The notes beneath the pieces are model-generated. The model did no database searches. It was not told where the DNA came from and saw nothing but the letters and a program-made list of their open reading frames with translations. The translations under genes were made by a program, and so were the position numbers. From the IMG/VR virus record IMGVR_UViG_3300009285_001880, positions 1 to 38,808 of that record: DNA of 38,808 bases, one strand, 5' to 3'. The stretch's first letter is position 1. Every line of letters starts with the position of its first letter. This document shows positions 3,853 through 38,808 of the stretch, in pieces. The stretch comes from a virus.

Positions 3853-4237
3853 TCCAACGTTTCTTCATGGCGCAGGACCGGCCGCACGTCGCCTTTCGTC
3901 CTCGGTCGCTACCCCGACTGATTGCCTTGAAAGGTTTTCGACAAATGGGACACGGGGTTTTTTTAATCTCCCTGCTTTTACTCATTTTACTGAATGCCCT
4001 TAGTCTCCCATCCTTTTTCATGTGACATCGGCGGCAGAGATATTCCCAATCTTTAAGATCGCGGAGATATTCTTGTGAACGGTTGGCCAAGTCGAGTTTT
4101 GGATTATTCTCGCCGCAGCTCGGGCAATCTTTCGGTTTGGGTAGTCGTCGTCTGATCCAGATGTGTAGTGGTCTGTAGCTTACCTTGTCACCCTTCCACA
4201 TGTGGTGCTCCTCCCCAATTTTTCTTTTTTGTTCCAC
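3836..4237 (-). CDS. HNH homing endonuclease with zinc motif moved to the C-terminus
   Basis: 133 aa, starting at GTG (4235-4237). The HNH core comes first: MWKGDKVSYRPLHIWIRRR, CPSCG, LRDLKDWEYLCRRCHMKKD (residues 13-77). The zinc motif comes after it (CPICRKPFKAI then CGRSC, about residues 95-123). In the paralogues at 1649 and 2614 the zinc motif precedes the core, so the domain order is permuted. The YFQWANIS segment is shortened to DLANRSQEYL. It could still act as a homing nuclease. Confidence 0.75.
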   Translation of the reverse strand: MEQKRKIGEEHHMWKGDKVSYRPLHIWIRRRLPKPKDCPSCGENNPKLDLANRSQEYLRDLKDWEYLCRRCHMKKDGRLRAFSKMSKSREIKKTPCPICRKPFKAISRGSDRGRKATCGRSCAMKKRWNDFKK

Positions 4238-4246
4238 AAGGCAATA

Positions 4247-4417
4247 TCAGCGATATCGTCCTCCGCACTCGCACTTAGGCTCCTCTCCGACGCTGGCGCG
4301 TTTCATCCTGCCGCACGGCCCCGAGCAGAAGACGCGCCGGAGGTTACGGATTTTCTCGACGCAAGACACGCCAGTTTTACTGGCGTTCGGGGAATTCGGA
4401 CCCGTGAGGGTAGACAT
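4247..4417 (-). CDS. Small cysteine-rich protein (56 aa), zinc-finger-like
   Basis: ATG at 4415-4417, stop at 4247-4249. The C-terminal half contains RVFCSGPCGRMKR then KCECGGRY, which resembles the zinc half-motif of the neighbouring HNH proteins. It ends 9 bases before the GTG of the downstream HNH gene, so it may be a detached zinc module of that protein. An 8-bp perfect hairpin (4368-4386) lies inside the early codons, which lowers certainty that it is translated. No Shine-Dalgarno is present. Confidence 0.45.
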   Translation of the reverse strand: MSTLTGPNSPNASKTGVSCVEKIRNLRRVFCSGPCGRMKRASVGEEPKCECGGRYR

Positions 4418-4439: not shown

Positions 4440-5035
4440 ATCGGTAAGACCGTATCACGCTTTTATCCACATGTCTAGGGGACAGAAATGGCCTTAAATA
4501 CGGGGTTCTGGGGTGGCCGCTACACGGGCCTCTGCCGTCGGTCGGTCCGGGTTGCGGCTTCGTTGTTTGTCATGGACGGCCAGTATGGGGGTCCGGATTG
4601 GGTCATCAAGAAGTCTCGGATTTCCCCTCCCCTGTTTTCAAGGCGTTTTACTGTAACCCACTCCTTCCGCAGGCAAAACATACGGGACTTATATACGAGG
4701 AAGGACCAGCCCCGTCGGTCTTGCCGTCGATGACCTTGCCGAAGTAAGATCGGGATGTCGGCGGCGTCCAAGTAGACGGAGCGCCGCTCCGACGTCCGAG
4801 GCCTTGACAGGCCGAGCTGGTGCGCCCAGAGGGGCTCGTGCTAGACTGGAAACGACCCAAAATCTATTCTCTCGTGGCTAGACGAGAGGAGCGACGCGTT
4901 CACCACGCACCCCACAGGTGGACCATCGAAAGGGGCTACCCTGCCAACTGCAAAGTTGTCGGGAGCTAGCACTCTGCCGACGCCCGCGCCTCAAAACGCG
5001 GTCTTGGGCGGGGTAGTCGCTTTCGATGGTTTTTC
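4440..5035 (+). ncRNA. Candidate large structured RNA A
   Basis: No convincing protein is encoded here, but the plus strand shows dense pairing. The closing helix pairs 4922-4932 with 5020-5030 (11 bp perfect), then after a 3x3 internal loop 4936-4945 with 5007-5016 (10 bp, one U-G pair). Inside lies a 5-bp hairpin capped by a GCAA tetraloop (4945-4958). Further hairpins are at 4662-4705, 4777-4791, 4800-4813 and 4869-4888. U-G pairs and the GNRA loop occur on the plus strand only, which sets the orientation. Five Ts follow the closing helix directly, like an intrinsic terminator. Boundaries are approximate and the RNA class is unknown. Confidence 0.55.
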
Positions 5036-5073: not shown

Positions 5074-5108
5074 AGCCTTAAAAACAAAGAAACGCCCGTA
5101 AAGGGCGT
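5074..5108 (-). terminator. Intrinsic terminator of the methyltransferase operon
   Basis: On the minus strand a 6-bp stem, ACGCCC (5092-5097) pairing with GGGCGT (5103-5108), is followed by TTTCTTTGTTTTT. It overlaps the last codons of the damaged methyltransferase gene and separates that transcript from candidate RNA A, which points towards it from the left. Confidence 0.8.
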
Positions 5109-5612
5109 ATGGGCTGCAGTATTCTGCTGGCGACGGGTTTTTCGTTCGGATGGGCCAGTTTGGAAGCGTCCACGCGCTGAACGCGGATGACGGATTTAGG
5201 ACGCTTGCCCGGAAAGGTGAACCGCCCCTTCGTGGCGAAGATGACGTTCTCATGGCAAGGGGCGAAGTCGCCACGCAAGTCCCCCATCCCATGAACCACC
5301 TTGTCCCAGATGACCTGGGCCTTGTCCTTGAATCCGGCCTCGCGCATCTTCACGCGGAAAACCTCCTCGACGTCGTATCTGGTGAAGCAAGCCAGCACCC
5401 CCCCGCTTGAGGACGCGGAAGGCGTCAGGTAGCCATGAGGTGAACGGCTCCTTGTCGTTGGCAATCTTGGGCTTCCACCTGCTCCTATCAGTCCGCCTGG
5501 CGGACTGATAGTCGATGCCGAACGGTGGGTCCGTCACGATACAGTCGATGCTCCCCTCCGTACCCTTCTTCAGGACGTCGAGGCAGTCGCCCAAAATTAT
5601 TTTAGTGTCCAT
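5078..5612 (-). pseudogene. DNA methyltransferase, frameshifted and C-terminally truncated
   Basis: The N-terminal part (to about 5400) has the beta-class N6-adenine/N4-cytosine methyltransferase start: GDCLDVL then TDPPFGIDY (motif IV) near residues 8-34. A run of seven G on the minus strand (5398-5404) puts the rest in another frame. With six G the protein continues as LKRGGVLACFTRYD to HPNEKPV. After HPNEKPV it stops within about 16 residues. The SAM-binding DPFxGSGTT motif that should follow in this class is missing, so it is probably inactive even if the frame is restored. Its 3' end now abuts the terminator and RNA A. Confidence 0.8.
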
Positions 5613-5982: not shown

Positions 5983-6024
5983 GTATGATTTTGCTCTCCA
6001 TAATTCGCGGGTTTAAGTCTTGAT

Positions 6025-6047
6025 CGGGGGCCAGGTGTTAGCCCCCG
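6025..6047. repeat. 7-bp perfect hairpin in the intergenic region
   Basis: CGGGGGC (6025-6031) pairs with GCCCCCG (6041-6047) around a 9-base loop. There is no T-run on either strand, so it is only terminator-like. It sits between the HNH gene and the repeat cluster. Confidence 0.5.
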
Positions 6048-6056
6048 TAAGCTGGT

Positions 6057-6266
6057 TGTTACATTTGATTGTTACACTATAGAGAGAGAGAATTGTAACA
6101 TTCTCTCTCCCTCTACTTAGAACTTCTGGTAACTTGTTACTGTAACATTCACATTTTTGGCTAACCTTTCAAAAATCTATGGGCGATTGTTACAGACTTG
6201 TTACAAGTTTGTTACACGCTTTTGATTGTTACAGACCCTTTTCTTAGCCTTAAAAAGTTTGTTACA
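6057..6266. repeat. Nine TGTTACA repeats: iteron-like origin or operator cluster
   Basis: TGTTACA occurs at 6057, 6070, 6188, 6199, 6210, 6227 and 6260 on the plus strand and inverted at 6094 and 6141. Three copies are spaced by exactly 11 bp (6188, 6199, 6210). At 6135-6147 a TGTTAC/GTAACA palindrome is formed. A 10-bp hairpin (6084-6093 with 6100-6109) presents one copy in its loop. The region is AT-rich inside a GC-rich genome and abuts the stop of the primase-helicase gene. An origin with iterons is the likeliest reading; a multi-site operator is the alternative. Confidence 0.7.
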
Positions 6267-8298
6267 CTCTATTTAGCACGGCTAATCGGTAGTTTCCCCT
6301 TATATTTCCGCCTTTTATGAGCTTTGCGGTCGCCAAACGGTTGATGGTCGTTCGGATAGTTCCGGGGCTGATGTTGGGCAGGAGTCCGTAGAGCTGTTGT
6401 AGGCTGGTGTCCTCGTCTGTACGCAGTGCACCAAGGATGGACGGTCGGGGGTCACTAGCCTGGATGTAGGCCAAATCCTCCTCGTACTCGATACCCACCC
6501 CCTTGTCGCTCATCTTGATCGCCACGGGGCGGCTCAGTGGACCGTTGTTGAACTTCTTATGGGTCAGTCCTAGGTGCTTAACCGTGTCCCCTTCTTCGGC
6601 GTCGGACTTCATGTTCCAGATGTTTCTGGCCAAGTTCGTGAAGAATACACTCCCAAATGTCCAGTCGCCACTGTCCGCCTTGGCCTCATGCCCGATCGTC
6701 AGGCTCGTTACCCCGATGTGCCGGAGAGCACCGAAGTACCGGGTAGCGATGGCGGCGTCTTCAGGGGCACCACCGCAAGCAGGAGCAGCCGAGTCCACGA
6801 TGACGAGGCCGATGCCCTTCTCGACCACGAACCGACGCAGGACGTCCTTCATCTCATGGAGAGGGACGCCCCCCGAGTTCTTGTAGAACAACATAGACTC
6901 TGCCTCGTCCGTAAACCCAGGGCAGAACGGAGCGAGGGTCAGGAGGCGGTGCTTGAAGGTGCCGGGGGAGTTCTCGTAGTCGATGAACAGAGTCTTGACC
7001 GTCTTGGTGGGCTGGGAGCCAAGGAAATCACTCCCAGAGGCCAATGACATAGCCCAGCGAAGCGCGACGTAAGTCTTTCCAACCCCACCCTTGGCGAACA
7101 GGAGGTTGGCCGCGTCCTCCTCGATGAAGGGGAACAGGAGGTGCTTGGGTTTTTCAGGAAAAATCTCGACCGCGTTCACGATGTCGTCCGCCGCGCTCTC
7201 TCGGTAGGCTTCCTTGAACTTGGCCCCCGCCTCCGACAGGATGAGGGGCCACTTGATGTCCTTCCCGAAGGAGGCCGTAAGCTGTCGGGCGTAGGACTCG
7301 CAGGATGAACCGGACAGGACGTTCAGGCGGGATTCGAAGACCCGTTTGGCGTGTCCGGGTATCTCGACGTGGCACTTCACGATGGCCTCCATCTCCCCAC
7401 GGGAGTAGGTCGGCTCGTCGTAGGAGAAGACCGCGAACCCCTCATCGATGGGGATACGGACCACAAAGACGTCATTCTCGCGGTTGATGACGGCTTCACC
7501 GACTTTGGCCCCAGAAAGCCTACGGCGCGATTCAGCCCGTCCGATGGATTGGTAGATGGTCCGCAAGTCCCGCTCGGAGAGGGGGGGCTTGGCGTGTTCG
7601 GCGTTCCACGAGACGAGAAGGGGCCAGACATGGGTTTCCCACTCGTCTTCTCGGAACCTCAGCAGGAGTTTGCCTGCGATGGAGGTGATCGTTTCGTTCC
7701 TTGACCCGTCCCCCACGACCTCGTTCATCCTTTTGGACCAGTCCACCGTCTCTTGACCGCTGGCCTTGTTGAAAGCCTCGACGACCTTCATCGGGAAGGG
7801 AAGGAAAGGTGCGATGCCTACCGGAGCAATCCACGCATACTGGCCCCCGCTAGGGTGGTTAGAGGGTGGAGCGATGATAAGCCCCCCGTCGTTCCTGATA
7901 TCGTGGAGAGGAGCGAACTTGACCTTGTTCCGGACTCGGGGCGTGTAAGCGAAATAAAAGTGTTTACCCCCTCCTCCCGAATAGGCCGTGACCGTGGTAT
8001 TATCTTTAAGTCCGAACAGGTCAAGATCGGCTCCGGCCTCGGTATCAAGCACGGTGATTCCAGAGATTTTTCCCGTGATGATGGCGATGTCGGCGTCTGG
8101 CCACTTCTTCCACCACTCCCTGATTTCCGCCTCGGTCGGATAGCGTTCCTGAAAAACTTTCCAGTCCACCGGGTAAGAAATATCTTTTCCCACGGACCCG
8201 TCAGCCTTCTTTGCTCCACCCTTGACTGAGCAGGGGACAAGACTGAACCCACACGTCAGGTAGAACAACGCCGCCTCCAATTTCTCGTTCATAATCAA
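6262..8298 (-). CDS. Bifunctional primase-polymerase / RecA-like helicase
   Basis: 678 aa. An N-terminal prim-pol domain carries VLDTE (83-87), SGGGGKHFYF (107-116) and a DIR...SGGQYAW segment (133-156), the three motifs of archaeo-eukaryotic primases. A primase C-terminal-type helical region follows (about 200-255). The RecA-like ATPase has Walker A GGVGKT (404-409), Walker B GLVIVDSA (497-504) and IGHEAK (535-540). A winged helix ends the protein (about 630-670). It probably primes and unwinds at the phage origin; the TGTTACA cluster lies at its 3' end. ATG at codon 3 (MNEK) is also a possible start. No DNA polymerase gene is seen, so the host enzyme may elongate. Confidence 0.9.
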   Translation of the reverse strand: MIMNEKLEAALFYLTCGFSLVPCSVKGGAKKADGSVGKDISYPVDWKVFQERYPTEAEIREWWKKWPDADIAIITGKISGITVLDTEAGADLDLFGLKDNTTVTAYSGGGGKHFYFAYTPRVRNKVKFAPLHDIRNDGGLIIAPPSNHPSGGQYAWIAPVGIAPFLPFPMKVVEAFNKASGQETVDWSKRMNEVVGDGSRNETITSIAGKLLLRFREDEWETHVWPLLVSWNAEHAKPPLSERDLRTIYQSIGRAESRRRLSGAKVGEAVINRENDVFVVRIPIDEGFAVFSYDEPTYSRGEMEAIVKCHVEIPGHAKRVFESRLNVLSGSSCESYARQLTASFGKDIKWPLILSEAGAKFKEAYRESAADDIVNAVEIFPEKPKHLLFPFIEEDAANLLFAKGGVGKTYVALRWAMSLASGSDFLGSQPTKTVKTLFIDYENSPGTFKHRLLTLAPFCPGFTDEAESMLFYKNSGGVPLHEMKDVLRRFVVEKGIGLVIVDSAAPACGGAPEDAAIATRYFGALRHIGVTSLTIGHEAKADSGDWTFGSVFFTNLARNIWNMKSDAEEGDTVKHLGLTHKKFNNGPLSRPVAIKMSDKGVGIEYEEDLAYIQASDPRPSILGALRTDEDTSLQQLYGLLPNISPGTIRTTINRLATAKLIKGGNIRGNYRLAVLNRV

Positions 8299-8723
8299 GG
8301 TTTTTCAGGGGCCAGATGGAAGACGCCGCCGGCGTCTAGGAAAGAATTCCTCCCCCACTGGATGACCTCGACCTCGGTGACGTCGGGACCGCCCCACACC
8401 CCGAAGAAATTGATGAGGATGTTAGCAGGATATTCCCTGGGGTCTTTGGCCTCGTCCTTCTCGGCTACTTGGCCACGGATCGTGGTCAGGAGCGCGAACG
8501 CGAGAGATTCCTTATCGTCGCAATCGACGCTTCCCCCGTCGTCGAGACTGAGGATTTCGGACATCCTGCCGTCCTTGAGCCGACCGAAACTCCAGTTCCC
8601 TTTACGGAATCCCACCAAGATTTCTTTTCCGTTCTTGAACACCACACGGAACGCGCACTCAGACTTGATGAGAGGCGAGAGAAGCTGAAGTCCCTTCAGC
8701 TCCCCCGTAAACCGGATGTCCAT
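8295..8723 (-). CDS. Hypothetical protein (142 aa) upstream of the primase-helicase
   Basis: Starts MDIRFTGELKGLQLL and contains beta-rich segments (CAFRVVFKNGKEILVGFRKG) and a C-terminal VEVIQWGRNSFLDAGG. The family is not recognised; co-transcription with the replicative protein suggests a DNA-replication accessory role. A longer reading frame exists back to 8837, but that would read through the palindrome at 8782-8799 and its T-run. The ATG at 8721-8723 in a GATATCTATGG context is therefore preferred. Its stop overlaps the helicase start by 4 bases. Confidence 0.65.
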   Translation of the reverse strand: MDIRFTGELKGLQLLSPLIKSECAFRVVFKNGKEILVGFRKGNWSFGRLKDGRMSEILSLDDGGSVDCDDKESLAFALLTTIRGQVAEKDEAKDPREYPANILINFFGVWGGPDVTEVEVIQWGRNSFLDAGGVFHLAPEKP

Positions 8724-9976: not shown

Positions 9977-10221
9977 AACCCCTGTTCAACTACGTCCTGC
10001 TCAAGTCCGTGGATCTCAAGAGCGAATCTGGACTCGTGGCCCCCGACACCGCCGCCAAAGAGCGTCCAGTCGAAGGCGAGGTCATCGAGATAGGTCCGGA
10101 CGTGAGCTGCCTCAAACCCGGCGACAAGGTGATTTTCAAGAAATACGCCCCCGACGAGTTCACCAAAGACGGAAACGATTATCTCCTCATCAGCCAAGAA
10201 GATATCATGGCGGTCCTATGA
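9973..10221 (+). CDS. groES: Phage GroES-like co-chaperonin
   Basis: 82 aa (bacterial GroES is about 97), GTG start overlapping the previous stop. The GroES pattern is clear: PLFNYVLLKS start, mobile loop with SGLVAPD (bacterial GGIVLTG), EGEVIEIGP, PGDKVIFKKY, and LLISQEDIMAVL at the end. Compared with E. coli GroES, about nine residues are missing between IGP and PGD, where the roof beta-hairpin lies. T4 gp31 also lacks that roof. It should cap the GroEL ring encoded next to it and may enlarge the folding chamber for capsid protein. Confidence 0.9.
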   Translation: MKPLFNYVLLKSVDLKSESGLVAPDTAAKERPVEGEVIEIGPDVSCLKPGDKVIFKKYAPDEFTKDGNDYLLISQEDIMAVL

Positions 10222-11759
10222 GAGTGCTCCACGGGAAAGAGGCCAGGGAAAAACTGAAGAAGGGCATGGACGTCATGGCCGATGCGGTCAAGAGCACCCT
10301 CGGTCCCAATGGCAAGAACGTCATCTTCTCCTCCGGTGGCGTCCCGGTCGTCACCAAAGACGGCGTGACGGTGGCTCGGGAGGTCATGCTCAAGGACGAG
10401 GGCGAGTACGTGGCGGTCAAGATCATGCGCCAAGCGGCCATGAAGACCAACCAAAACGTCGGGGACGGCACCACGACCTCCACCGTCTTGGCTCAAGCCA
10501 TCGTCACGCGCGGCCTCGACGCCCTCCAGGACAAGTCCCTGAACGTCCACGCTCTCCGCAAAGGAATCCAGGACTGCGCCGAGGAGATCAAGACCGCCCT
10601 CAAGGAACAGTCTCGAAGCGTCGATGGCGACTTGGAGAAAGTCGCGACGATTTCCGCCAACAACGACCCCATCATCGGCAAACACGTCGCCGATTGCGTG
10701 GAGAAAGCCGGTCCCGACGGTCTCGTGGTCGTCGAGGAATCCAAAAGTCTCGACACCCTCATCGACGAAGTGAACGGTATGGAACTGGAGAGGGGATACG
10801 TCGCCCCCTACATGGCCAACAACGAGCGTCTGGAGTGCGTGCTTCATAACCCCCTCGTGGCCGTTTCGGACAAGAAACTGTCCCTCTCCTCCGAAGTCCT
10901 CCCCCTCATGGAACTGCTGGTCAAGAACAAGCAGACCCGTGAACTCCTGCTCATCTGCGATGACATCGAAGGGGACGCCCTGGCTACGGCTTTCGTCAAC
11001 AAGCGGCAGGGCCAGTTCAACCTCGTGGTCGTCCGCGCCCCCGGAAGCCCAGGCGAGAAGAAAGAAATCCTAAGGGATATCGCTGAATACCTAGATACCG
11101 AAGTGATTTCCGAGACCGCCGGCCTCAAGCTCTCGACCTACGAGAATTACGGCACCGCAGAGAAAGTCATCATCTTCAAGGACAAGACCCTCATCATCGG
11201 GGGGAAGGGTGAGACTGAAAGGCGCATCGCGGACCTCAAGATCGAACTCGAAAACAAGGAACACGACCACGAAAAGGAGAAAATCAAGGCCCGCATCGCC
11301 AAGCTCCTCGGGAAGGTCATCGTCATCAAGGTCGGGGGTTCCACCGACTCGGAGATGCGAGAGAAGAAATACCTCTACGAGGACGCGGTCGGAGCGACCA
11401 AAGCGGCCCTCCGTTCCGGAGTCATCGCAGGCGGCGGAATCCCGCTCTACCACATCTCGGAGAAAATCAAGCCCAAAGATAGGGGGGCCGAAATCCTGCT
11501 CAAGGCGATCCAAGAGCCTTTCAAGACCATCATCAGGAACTCCGGACAGGACACCGAACGTGTCCTCAAGCACCTCCCGAAGGACGGAGGCTACGACGCC
11601 AAGACCGATACGTTCGTGGACGACATGCTGGCTCACGGCATCCTGGACCCCCTCGAAGTCACCCAGAAAGCCCTCGACAACGCGGTATCGGTAGCCACCA
11701 CCATCCTGACGACCGACTGCCTGATGTATGCCGAGCCCGACAAGAAAGACCCAAGCTGA
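10218..11759 (+). CDS. groEL: Phage GroEL-like chaperonin
   Basis: 513 aa. Nucleotide-binding TLGPNGKNV (27-35), GDGTTT (82-87), apical-domain segments EVLPLMELL and LLICDDIEGDALA, and AGGG (404-407) match GroEL. The catalytic Asp (E. coli D398) corresponds to D389 in YEDAVGATKAAL. The Gly-Gly-Met tail of bacterial GroEL is absent; the protein ends in a charged DKKDPS. It is coupled to groES by a 4-base overlap and lies directly upstream of the terminase genes. Carriage of both rings by a genome of about 37 kb is rare. It probably folds capsid or other virion proteins. Confidence 0.95.
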   Translation: MRVLHGKEAREKLKKGMDVMADAVKSTLGPNGKNVIFSSGGVPVVTKDGVTVAREVMLKDEGEYVAVKIMRQAAMKTNQNVGDGTTTSTVLAQAIVTRGLDALQDKSLNVHALRKGIQDCAEEIKTALKEQSRSVDGDLEKVATISANNDPIIGKHVADCVEKAGPDGLVVVEESKSLDTLIDEVNGMELERGYVAPYMANNERLECVLHNPLVAVSDKKLSLSSEVLPLMELLVKNKQTRELLLICDDIEGDALATAFVNKRQGQFNLVVVRAPGSPGEKKEILRDIAEYLDTEVISETAGLKLSTYENYGTAEKVIIFKDKTLIIGGKGETERRIADLKIELENKEHDHEKEKIKARIAKLLGKVIVIKVGGSTDSEMREKKYLYEDAVGATKAALRSGVIAGGGIPLYHISEKIKPKDRGAEILLKAIQEPFKTIIRNSGQDTERVLKHLPKDGGYDAKTDTFVDDMLAHGILDPLEVTQKALDNAVSVATTILTTDCLMYAEPDKKDPS

Positions 11760-36474: not shown

Positions 36475-36951
36475 TTAATCCAGTTTGTTAAGACGACCAA
36501 ACTTCCCGTGATACTTCAGAGAGGCTTGGTTGTAAGCTTGAGCGGCCTCCTTAGCTTTACTAAAAGAACCCAGTGAGATGTGGCGACCCTTCAGATAGAT
36601 GAAAGCACGGAACTTTCCTTGCGCCTTATGCCAACTCACGCCCTTGAAACCGGAACGGTTATTCCGCTGGTTCTTTCGATTCATTAGGTTTTGGGCATTG
36701 GTACAGATTCCAAGGTTTTCTCGTCGGTTATTTAGCCCATTCCCATCTATGTGGTCAACCACTAAACCTTGGGGTGCTCCAACGATAAGGCGATGCATAA
36801 TGACTAGAACGCCCTTTTCTTCGCGTCGTGCATAGCTCGTGGAGCTTCCAATATGACAGCTCCACTTTCCGACAGACTTAACCCAAGCATAGTCTTCATT
36901 ATCGACGACGGCATACTTGCCTTTGGTCAGAGGAATCTTTTTCATGTTCAC
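36475..36951 (-). CDS. HNH-AP2 homing endonuclease
   Basis: 158 aa. N-terminal NUMOD-like start (KIPLTKGKYAVVDNEDYAWV), HNH core (MHRLIVGAPQGLVVDHIDGNGLNNRRENLGICTNAQN, about 53-89) and AP2-like DNA-binding domain (GFKGVSWHKAQGKFRAFIYLKGRHISLGSF, 101-130). ATG at codon 3 is an equal start. It lies next to candidate RNA B. It belongs to another HNH subfamily than the zinc-containing ones. Confidence 0.9.
   Translation of the reverse strand: MNMKKIPLTKGKYAVVDNEDYAWVKSVGKWSCHIGSSTSYARREEKGVLVIMHRLIVGAPQGLVVDHIDGNGLNNRRENLGICTNAQNLMNRKNQRNNRSGFKGVSWHKAQGKFRAFIYLKGRHISLGSFSKAKEAAQAYNQASLKYHGKFGRLNKLD
36917..36945 (+). promoter_or_regulatory. Weak sigma70-like promoter candidate ahead of RNA B
   Basis: TTGCCT (36917-36922), 17-bp spacer, TTTCAT (36940-36945), 4 of 6 matches in each box. 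A start near 36952 would begin six bases before the first hairpin of region B. It lies inside the 5' part of the HNH-AP2 gene on the other strand. Confidence 0.35.
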
Positions 36952-37690
36952 AATTGAGCGGACGAGCTTTCACTCGCCGCCTGCCCCGCACATCCTTTCC
37001 CATCACGGCCGATCAGGTTGGGGAAATGCGGGAGAGGCGACGACCGAGACGCCGTTCCGTCCCGCGTACGCAGGGTAGAAGCAAGGGGCTTGCGCTCCAC
37101 GTCTCGGTGTCGCTTGCGTTTGAGTAATCTCCTAGCGAGGATTTCCACCACTCACCTCGCATGGGGCTATTCGGTAGCCTTTCGCCCCTCGGCTCTGCTA
37201 CTCACCCTCACAGGTAGAGTCAAAAGCCTAGCGTCTACATTCTCCTACCGCGTTATTTGGCCTTCTCCGTGACAGAAAAGGTCGTGGTTGCTCGATCGGT
37301 TTATCCCGCGTCCGGGTTCAGTTCCCGACCTAGCGATAGGAATGTCTATTCCGCCATAGATTATTACTGCGCCCTTGCCAGGTGCGCCGGGGAATGTTCC
37401 CGCCACGGGGTCAGGAAAGTAGGTAGCCCCTCGAACGTAGAAGTCGCTCGATTGACCTCTCCTGACCCCTTGGCGGGGGCCAAGACGTGAATCTTGACCC
37501 TTGGACCGGCTTACGGCGACCCTTGTGATGCTAGTCGATACTTCACATCACGAGTGCGCCGCTGCCCGGCCTGGTGACCGCTGGCTTCACAACCCCACGC
37601 TCGGAAGCGCTTATGCGGTTTTAGTAGCGTGGCTATCCCACACCAGGCCGGGCAGCGACGAGGGAACGCGGGGTTCCCTGCGTCTGCTGA
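36950..37690. ncRNA. Candidate large structured RNA B
   Basis: No protein is supportable over about 740 bases. Strong complementary pairs are 36958-36966 with 36973-36980; 36985-36990 and 36996-37001 with 37021-37032; 37037-37051 with 37100-37113 (one bulge); 37135-37140 with 37155-37160; and 37399-37416 with 37460-37477 (17 pairs, one mismatch). A 17-bp perfect pair joins 37560-37576 with 37641-37657. Local hairpins are at 37081-37093, 37163-37188, 37469-37484, 37595-37632 and 37661-37679. Strand is not settled: U-G pairs favour plus in three helices, but a GAAA loop (36967-36970) and one extension of the 17-bp helix favour minus. Confidence 0.55.
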
Positions 37691-37696
37691 CTAATA

Positions 37697-37816
37697 CGAC
37701 CCCGACCTCGACCTCGACCCCGACCTCGACCTCGACCCCGACCTCGACCACGACCACGACCACGACCACGACCCCGACCTCGACCACGACCACGACCACG
37801 ACCTCGACCCCGACCA
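37697..37816. repeat. Right hexanucleotide array (GACCTC/GACCCC/GACCAC)n
   Basis: About 120 bp of the same degenerate hexamer as at 403-502, same orientation. It separates candidate RNA B from the AT-rich right flank. The apparent Thr/Ser/Pro reading frame across it is an effect of the repeat. Confidence 0.9.
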
Positions 37817-37862
37817 TAGGATATCCAAAATACATAATGCGTTATTTAGATAAATCATATTT

Positions 37863-38171
37863 TTACCATTTCAATTTAGTAAAAGATTCAACTGCATTCC
37901 ACATAATCTGTATTTCGTTAGGCGTATCTTGTAAATCAGAAGCGTTTTTAGCATTAAGTTCACCTGTTTCATATACAATACCTGCATCAGTTAAAGTAAT
38001 GTAAGTTGAGTTTACTGCTTTTACTTTTCCGTGATATATGTATCTTGCGCACCAGAAAGTAAATACTTGTCCAATAAGATCGTTTAAATCTTCGATTGGT
38101 TTAGTTTCTGTTTCATCTAGTTGATCTTTTATTAATTCGTATGTTTCATCAGAAATTTTGATTGTTTTCAT
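37863..38171 (-). CDS. Hypothetical protein (102 aa), AT-rich flank
   Basis: It begins MKTIKISDETYELIKDQLDE, the usual start of ribbon-helix-helix-like or antitoxin-like proteins. A beta-rich part follows (VFTFWCARYIYHGKVKAVNSTYITLTDAGIVYETG). A perfect Shine-Dalgarno (AAGGAGGTGA, 38178-38187) lies 6 bases before the ATG and inside the 3' end of the upstream gene (4-base overlap). It looks like a small phage or plasmid protein from a Firmicutes-like replicon. Confidence 0.75.
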   Translation of the reverse strand: MKTIKISDETYELIKDQLDETETKPIEDLNDLIGQVFTFWCARYIYHGKVKAVNSTYITLTDAGIVYETGELNAKNASDLQDTPNEIQIMWNAVESFTKLKW

Positions 38172-38404
38172 ATAGTTTCACCTCCTTCACTTATGTTTAA
38201 TACTTTTCTCATACTTTCAATCATAACTTTTAACGCCTCTGCTTGACCCTCGGTTATACAATAAACATTTATCCCCTTACTATTTGGGTTTTGGCTAAGG
38301 GTTTTAGGAGCGTTGCAAATAGCAATAACTACCCCTAGACGCATATAATCTTTTTCCCACCCCAAGTATTTTGCTATTTCGTAAATTCCATATAATTTTT
38401 TCAT
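38168..38404 (-). CDS. Hypothetical protein (78 aa), DNA-binding-like, AT-rich flank
   Basis: The start (MKKLYGIYEIAKYLGWEKDYMRL) has the look of a helix-turn-helix or excisionase-like fold, in which a short beta turn leads to EIAKYLG. The remainder (GINVYCITEGQAEALKVMIESM) is helical. A purine-rich Shine-Dalgarno (GGTGAAGGG) precedes the ATG. Function is inferred from this pattern only. Confidence 0.6.
   Translation of the reverse strand: MKKLYGIYEIAKYLGWEKDYMRLGVVIAICNAPKTLSQNPNSKGINVYCITEGQAEALKVMIESMRKVLNISEGGETI
38178..38187 (-). promoter_or_regulatory. Strong Shine-Dalgarno site in the AT-rich flank
   Basis: AAGGAGGTGA on the minus strand, 6 bases from the ATG at 38169-38171. No central phage gene has a site this good, which is key evidence that flank and centre have different origins. 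Confidence 0.85.
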
Positions 38405-38499
38405 TTCTTTCCCTTCACCTTCCGTTTAGTCGATATTAAGGCTGGGTAAACAACTACAAACATAACCTAATGTCGCCCGACAATGTTTTTGATGTTTCT

Positions 38500-38772
38500 T
38501 CATTTCTCGACCTCTTTTAGTTTAGCTAACACGCCAGATACAGATTCCCCCGTAATAGGTACTTTGCCACTCCATTTCTCGCCATATAACATTAAGTGCC
38601 ACTGCCCATCAGACCATCGGTGTAAAAACTCAAAGTCTTTTCTATTTAACAACCCAATTAATCCTCTCTCGTGTTTCTTTATAAGGGCTAAAAGGGCATC
38701 CACTTGTTTGTCTTTAACTAACCATTGGTCTTCTAGTATCTTTGATATTTCAGAGTGTAGATTGTTTTTCAT
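38500..38772 (-). CDS. Hypothetical protein (90 aa), AT-rich flank
   Basis: A helical N-terminal half (SEISKILEDQWLVKDKQVDALLALI) with a compact C-terminal part (RWSDGQWHLMLYGEKWSGKVPITGESV). No family is recognised. AAAGAG lies 1-6 bases before the ATG, a weak Shine-Dalgarno. It is the first gene of this leftward run inside the window. Confidence 0.6.
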   Translation of the reverse strand: MKNNLHSEISKILEDQWLVKDKQVDALLALIKKHERGLIGLLNRKDFEFLHRWSDGQWHLMLYGEKWSGKVPITGESVSGVLAKLKEVEK

Positions 38773-38808
38773 CTCTTTTTCTTTTTAGGCCAGTCGATTT
38801 GGTATTGT

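Follow-up and report, generated by a model that had tools for sequence, protein, structure and literature searches.

A candidate large structured RNA in a 745-nt gene-free region of an uncultured tailed phage

A 745-nt non-coding gap in the genome of an uncultured tailed phage, here called B, has a non-random fold and a bias towards the minus strand. Our best reading, put forward tentatively, is that B may be a large structured noncoding RNA of the phage, an orphan read from the minus strand; that it is transcribed, set free as an RNA of its own and functional is what we infer. A large structured RNA is also what the initial annotation had proposed, and the proposal stands as the best reading, with a non-random fold and now a direction, but about 40% of the region folds near chance and it belongs to no Rfam family.

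Genomic setting and fold of B

The source is IMG/VR virus record IMGVR_UViG_3300009285_001880, a linear sequence of 38,808 bases that was analysed over its whole length (the window). It carries genes for large terminase, portal, major capsid and GroEL, together with several HNH genes. Genes run rightward from ~9 to 33 kb and leftward on either side of that block. The phage-encoded GroEL chaperonin is at 10218-11759 (+; phrog_5725, E 9e-134). B is flanked by two minus-strand genes:

36475..36945 (-): HNH-AP2 free-standing homing endonuclease gene, directly downstream of B (Pfam HNH_3 6.2e-9, AP2 3.2e-8; phrog_99 1.2e-40)
36946..37690 (-): B, candidate large structured RNA (gap limits, fold z, no coding signal, no Rfam family)
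37691..37858 (-): array gene, directly upstream of B, a hexamer array read as Ser-[Trp/Arg/Gly] repeats (MIYLNNALCILDILWSGSRSWSW...SGSY*)

The gap, first described as about 740 gene-free bases, was borne out at 745 nt on the minus strand, bounded by the array ORF's stop (37691) and by the ATG of the HNH-AP2 gene (36945), whose 158-aa product combines HNH_3 and AP2. ORFs within B have codon scores of -0.10 to -0.42, whereas most large phage genes lie between +0.2 and +0.56, a test that is weak here because several HNH genes likewise score negative. No promoter or terminator patterns above chance were found for B, and ARAGORN with default settings found no tRNA genes in the 38,808-base window. 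A tRNA-like T-arm seen by eye at ~37311-37333 (+) was rejected: neither default ARAGORN nor Rfam finds a tRNA there, and relaxed ARAGORN makes 124 calls genome-wide, so the T-arm is noise.

Folded on the minus strand, B reaches -344.4 kcal/mol versus -285.9 +/- 8.0 in 50 dinucleotide shuffles (z -7.3); the plus strand gives z -5.1 (50 dinucleotide shuffles). B contains three of the genome's five leading 250-nt fold windows, which rank after two short hairpin elements. The long helices listed in the initial annotation are present, with 17 perfect pairs at 37560-37576/37641-37657, 17 pairs and one mismatch at 37399-37416/37460-37477, 14 pairs and one bulged base at 37037-37051/37100-37113, and a bulged hairpin at 36985-37032. 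The first can be extended to 20 positions (37557-37576/37641-37660), in which the sole mismatch is C-A on the plus strand and G-U on the minus strand. Two ungapped helices score 18.7 and 17.1, compared with 14.7 for the best of 60 shuffles, and four helices score at least 9 versus 1.95 expected (shuffle maximum 5). The statement that random DNA would not give this density agrees with the fold z and the long helices, but small hairpins are as dense in shuffles as in B; because the fold excess arises from a few long helices, 'density of hairpins' overstates the case.

These values bear on the idea that B is a chance fold, or an assembly oddity beside a low-complexity array with a GC jump from ~30% to 60%. 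GC does fall sharply beyond the array, and an independent copy of B was not found, but a z of -7.3 and helices above every shuffle speak against it, as does the position of the composition jump, which falls outside B and leaves B with the phage's own GC. We consider this account very improbable.

From 5' to 3' on the minus strand, B divides into the following domains:

37655..37690 (-): D1, 5' hairpin (GACGCAGGGAAC...GUUCCCUCGUC); z -4.0, 0/150 shuffles as stable
37557..37660 (-): D2, helix of 20 pairs with a perfect core of 17, closed by a 64-nt loop; z -7.1, helix scores higher than in any of 60 shuffles
37511..37556 (-): D3, hairpin with stem GUGAUG/CAUCAC; z -1.4, indistinguishable from chance
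37380..37510 (-): D4, closed two-hairpin domain with the 17-pair helix 37399-37416/37460-37477 and a 9-pair hairpin; z -7.0 (-), -2.8 (+)
37117..37380 (-): D5, multibranched middle, weakly supported; z -2.1 (-), -0.3 (+)
37034..37116 (-): D6, 14-pair helix with one bulge, enclosing two hairpins; z -3.7, 0/150 shuffles
36960..37036 (-): D7, bulged hairpin and 3'-terminal hairpin; z -2.0

The per-domain z values point to two robust blocks, 37380-37690 and 37034-37116, both far beyond chance, with a loose middle at 37117-37380 (z -2.1). Together with 37511-37556, this middle makes up the ~40% of B that folds hardly better than chance. The D2 loop may hold a pseudoknot in which CCACGCU/AGCGUGG (7 pairs) crosses ACCGC/GCGGU (5 pairs). 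Crossing helices of this kind occur in 2.2% of shuffled loops, but by the same rule they are also present on the plus strand, so the pseudoknot is no more than suggestive.

A second ornate RNA in the same genome had also been proposed; the case is weak, with a fold z of only -2.6 for region A, and comparison of A with B revealed no shared sequence. Region A begins where a DNA methyltransferase gene (5078-5612, -) is cut off, the gene being frameshifted and ending after HPNEKPVA, before the expected FxGxG motif; a terminator-like hairpin comes next. Elsewhere, a compact, very stable nested hairpin element occupies 876-1125, between an HNH gene and gene 534-872 (250-nt window z ~-7.8 on both strands). 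At 6020-6250, just downstream of the primase-helicase gene, the words TGTAACA/TGTTACA are repeated, some of them in a hairpin; they are iteron-like and possibly mark a replication origin or operator.

Strand and position in the gene order

The evidence favours the minus strand as the one from which B would be read. The strand had initially been called unsettled, and domain energies, the balance of G-U and A-C mismatches and gene orientation now favour minus. D1, D2, D4, D5 and D6 fold more strongly on the minus than on the plus strand, and D3 and D7 about equally; the strongest single argument is D4 (-7.0 versus -2.8 on the plus strand). Across the four best helices, mismatches are G-U on the minus strand in eight cases versus G-U on the plus strand in three. 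The minus-strand energy lead of ~28 kcal/mol is inside the spread of strand differences for coding windows, and because differences this large also occur there, no single item is decisive.

Strand symmetry also matters for an account that sees the hairpins as inverted repeats at the DNA level (fold-back elements, sites of protein binding or recombination, or hairpin debris beside a homing endonuclease) without any RNA function. Both strands of B fold significantly, other long hairpins are found in the HNH-rich left arm (900-1045, 4915-5035 and ~6000-6125), and the flanking arrays and GC jump suggest a recombining neighbourhood. A pure palindrome is expected to be strand-symmetric, yet D4 and D5 favour minus, and the helices of B enclose further structure instead of forming simple palindromes. 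On balance, we hold a purely DNA-level origin to be quite unlikely.

B lies exactly between two minus-strand genes, and its last hairpin, in D7, ends ~14 nt before the HNH ATG, with no clear Shine-Dalgarno sequence visible there. Both observations would fit a long structured UTR, either a cis leader that damps HNH translation or sets its timing, or a 3' structure shielding the message upstream. However, 745 nt is long for a leader, the upstream regions of the first and best 26 HNH relatives hold no comparable structure (only isolated 200-nt windows dip), and no B-like block follows the array at any of ~65 other array loci with enough flank. We regard a UTR as an unlikely explanation.

If B is instead a noncoding RNA in its own right, it would be part of a minus-strand phage transcript from a leftward operon that runs from the array gene through B to the HNH gene. 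The transcript of B would fold into a multi-domain structured RNA of ~700 nt, with two strongly folded blocks (37380-37690 and about 36960-37116) on either side of a looser middle. In infected cells this noncoding RNA, stand-alone or processed, would most likely work through its fold.

Relatives of B and of its neighbours

The homologue search suggested in the initial annotation yielded no relative of B in phages, plasmids, E. coli, IMG/VR, GTDB, 50 related virus records or 80 array-bearing phages. Using blastn against phages, plasmids and E. coli, B matched nothing, and in one search only the HNH gene matched. The 50 virus records related by terminase (best 52-53% identity) gave short chance blastn matches only and no B, and a covariance model of D2-D3 found no match among them. 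Translation-based seed searches of IMG/VR and GTDB contigs, which detect only close homologues of B (roughly 85-90% identity or more), returned no relative. Covariance models built from the single sequence of each of three B domains, with R1 run on 51 virus records plus the array loci and R2 and R3 on related contigs plus HNH loci, recovered only B, its own reverse strand and one weak chance match for R1 (L255, E 0.39). Several candidates were discarded: two exact 17-mer matches to B were judged chance, near-matches in L082, L115 (within a coding gene), L312 and L313 were chance or coding on inspection, and the strong fold in the nearest relative (L085, ~7750-8375) consists of AT-rich hairpin repeats that are not B. 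Within the collections searched, B appears to be an orphan.

For the HNH gene we gathered 80 relatives, nearly all at ~45% identity or less; 20 of their loci contained no intron, and the one Rfam RNA there was a tRNA locus, met twice. Because the HNH relatives examined are without such an RNA, B is not one half of a conserved element made of an RNA and an HNH gene.

The (CGACCN)n arrays occur next to B and near the left end of the window; translated from the minus strand, each gives Ser-[Trp/Arg/Gly] repeats framed by a start and a stop codon of its own (ORFs 37858-37691 and 520-401). A pattern scan found at least 120 such stretches, and 80 loci were retained. Among these, 35/80 code for a protein related to the 534-872 product (E<=1e-5), mostly immediately upstream of the array and on its strand, and at least seven match the AT-rich protein 37863-38171. 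One locus, L189, encodes a homologue of gene 534-872 (53% over 78 residues) and then a TCT-based version of the repeat (4098-4337), SRSWSRYRYR..., and the array gene beside B has the same leader and repeat style. The arrays are best read as coding Ser-X repeat microproteins of a phage module widespread in IMG/VR, and the TCG and TCT versions suggest that array codons track base composition. An origin as assembly or telomere artefacts was set aside in favour of coding repeats. Just outside both arrays (1-400 and 37820-38808) GC is ~30-38%, a drop that looks as if a GC-rich circular genome had recombined with an AT-rich one at the array, by insertion or assembly chimera. The AT-rich gene 37863-38171 is possibly related to the small conserved phage gene 534-872. 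Among strongly folded regions behind the arrays of other phages, we inspected the four with the most structure, and these code for protein wholly or in large part.

Comparison with known large RNAs

An Rfam scan of the whole window at the gathering threshold matches no family, and at E<=10 the B region returns noise only, mostly microRNA-like. Of the Infernal models proposed at the outset, those for GOLLD, ROOL, HEARO and group I/II introns were run and gave no match at E<=10. This holds for GOLLD (RF02032), HEARO (RF02033), the group I intron model Intron_gpI (RF00028) and the group II models Intron_gpII (RF00029) and group-II-D1D4-1; ROOL (RF03087) had no match at E<=10 in the phage's own genome and none at the gathering score, and the control genomes were silent too, which makes the ROOL negative at E<=10 less firm.

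HEARO adjoins an HNH (IscB-type) ORF. B is like HEARO and the HNH-bearing group I/II introns in being a structured RNA directly 5' of a same-strand HNH gene, and this placement is what favours reading B and the HNH-AP2 gene together as a mobile ribozyme that has degenerated or diverged very far and resembles a group I/II intron or HEARO. Yet Intron_gpI, Intron_gpII, group-II-D1D4-1 and HEARO are all without a match at E<=10, and no gene is interrupted at B, which lies between the HNH gene and an array ORF that ends in a stop of its own. The HNH product is a small AP2 homing enzyme with free-standing relatives, intron-free in the 20 loci. We regard a mobile ribozyme as improbable.

Large structured RNA classes known in phages are, to our knowledge, few. 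ROOL is usually, though not obligatorily, found near a phage tRNA island, and GOLLD is typically near tRNAs and has a conserved 3' half. Of the traits expected of a large ornate noncoding RNA, B shows a long gene-free region, an energy far below shuffles and a strand bias. It is possible, if doubtful, that B represents a new class of large ornate phage RNA, of which it would be the first known member, unrelated to GOLLD and ROOL and encoded in a leftward operon directly behind a Ser-X repeat gene. If this is true, such an unrelated class would tell whether phages evolve RNAs of this sort repeatedly; for now B is a single, relative-less sequence, and its value is that of a well-delimited target (745 nt, minus strand) for detecting transcripts and finding homologues.

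GOLLD is a large phage noncoding RNA (>800 nt) of a size class comparable to B (PMC12286853), whereas B has no match to its model at E<=10 and no tRNAs nearby. The likeness to ROOL lies in a phage-encoded, gene-free RNA of about 600-700 nt (659 nt in one example) with a multi-domain fold and unknown function (PMC12286853); B differs in being without a model match (controls silent), a tRNA island or homologues found. GOLLD and ROOL, the best studied of the large structured phage RNAs, form cages made of RNA only, with a purpose as yet unknown (PMC12286853). By the tests run a member of neither family, B would act in a mode that resembles these large ornate phage RNAs.
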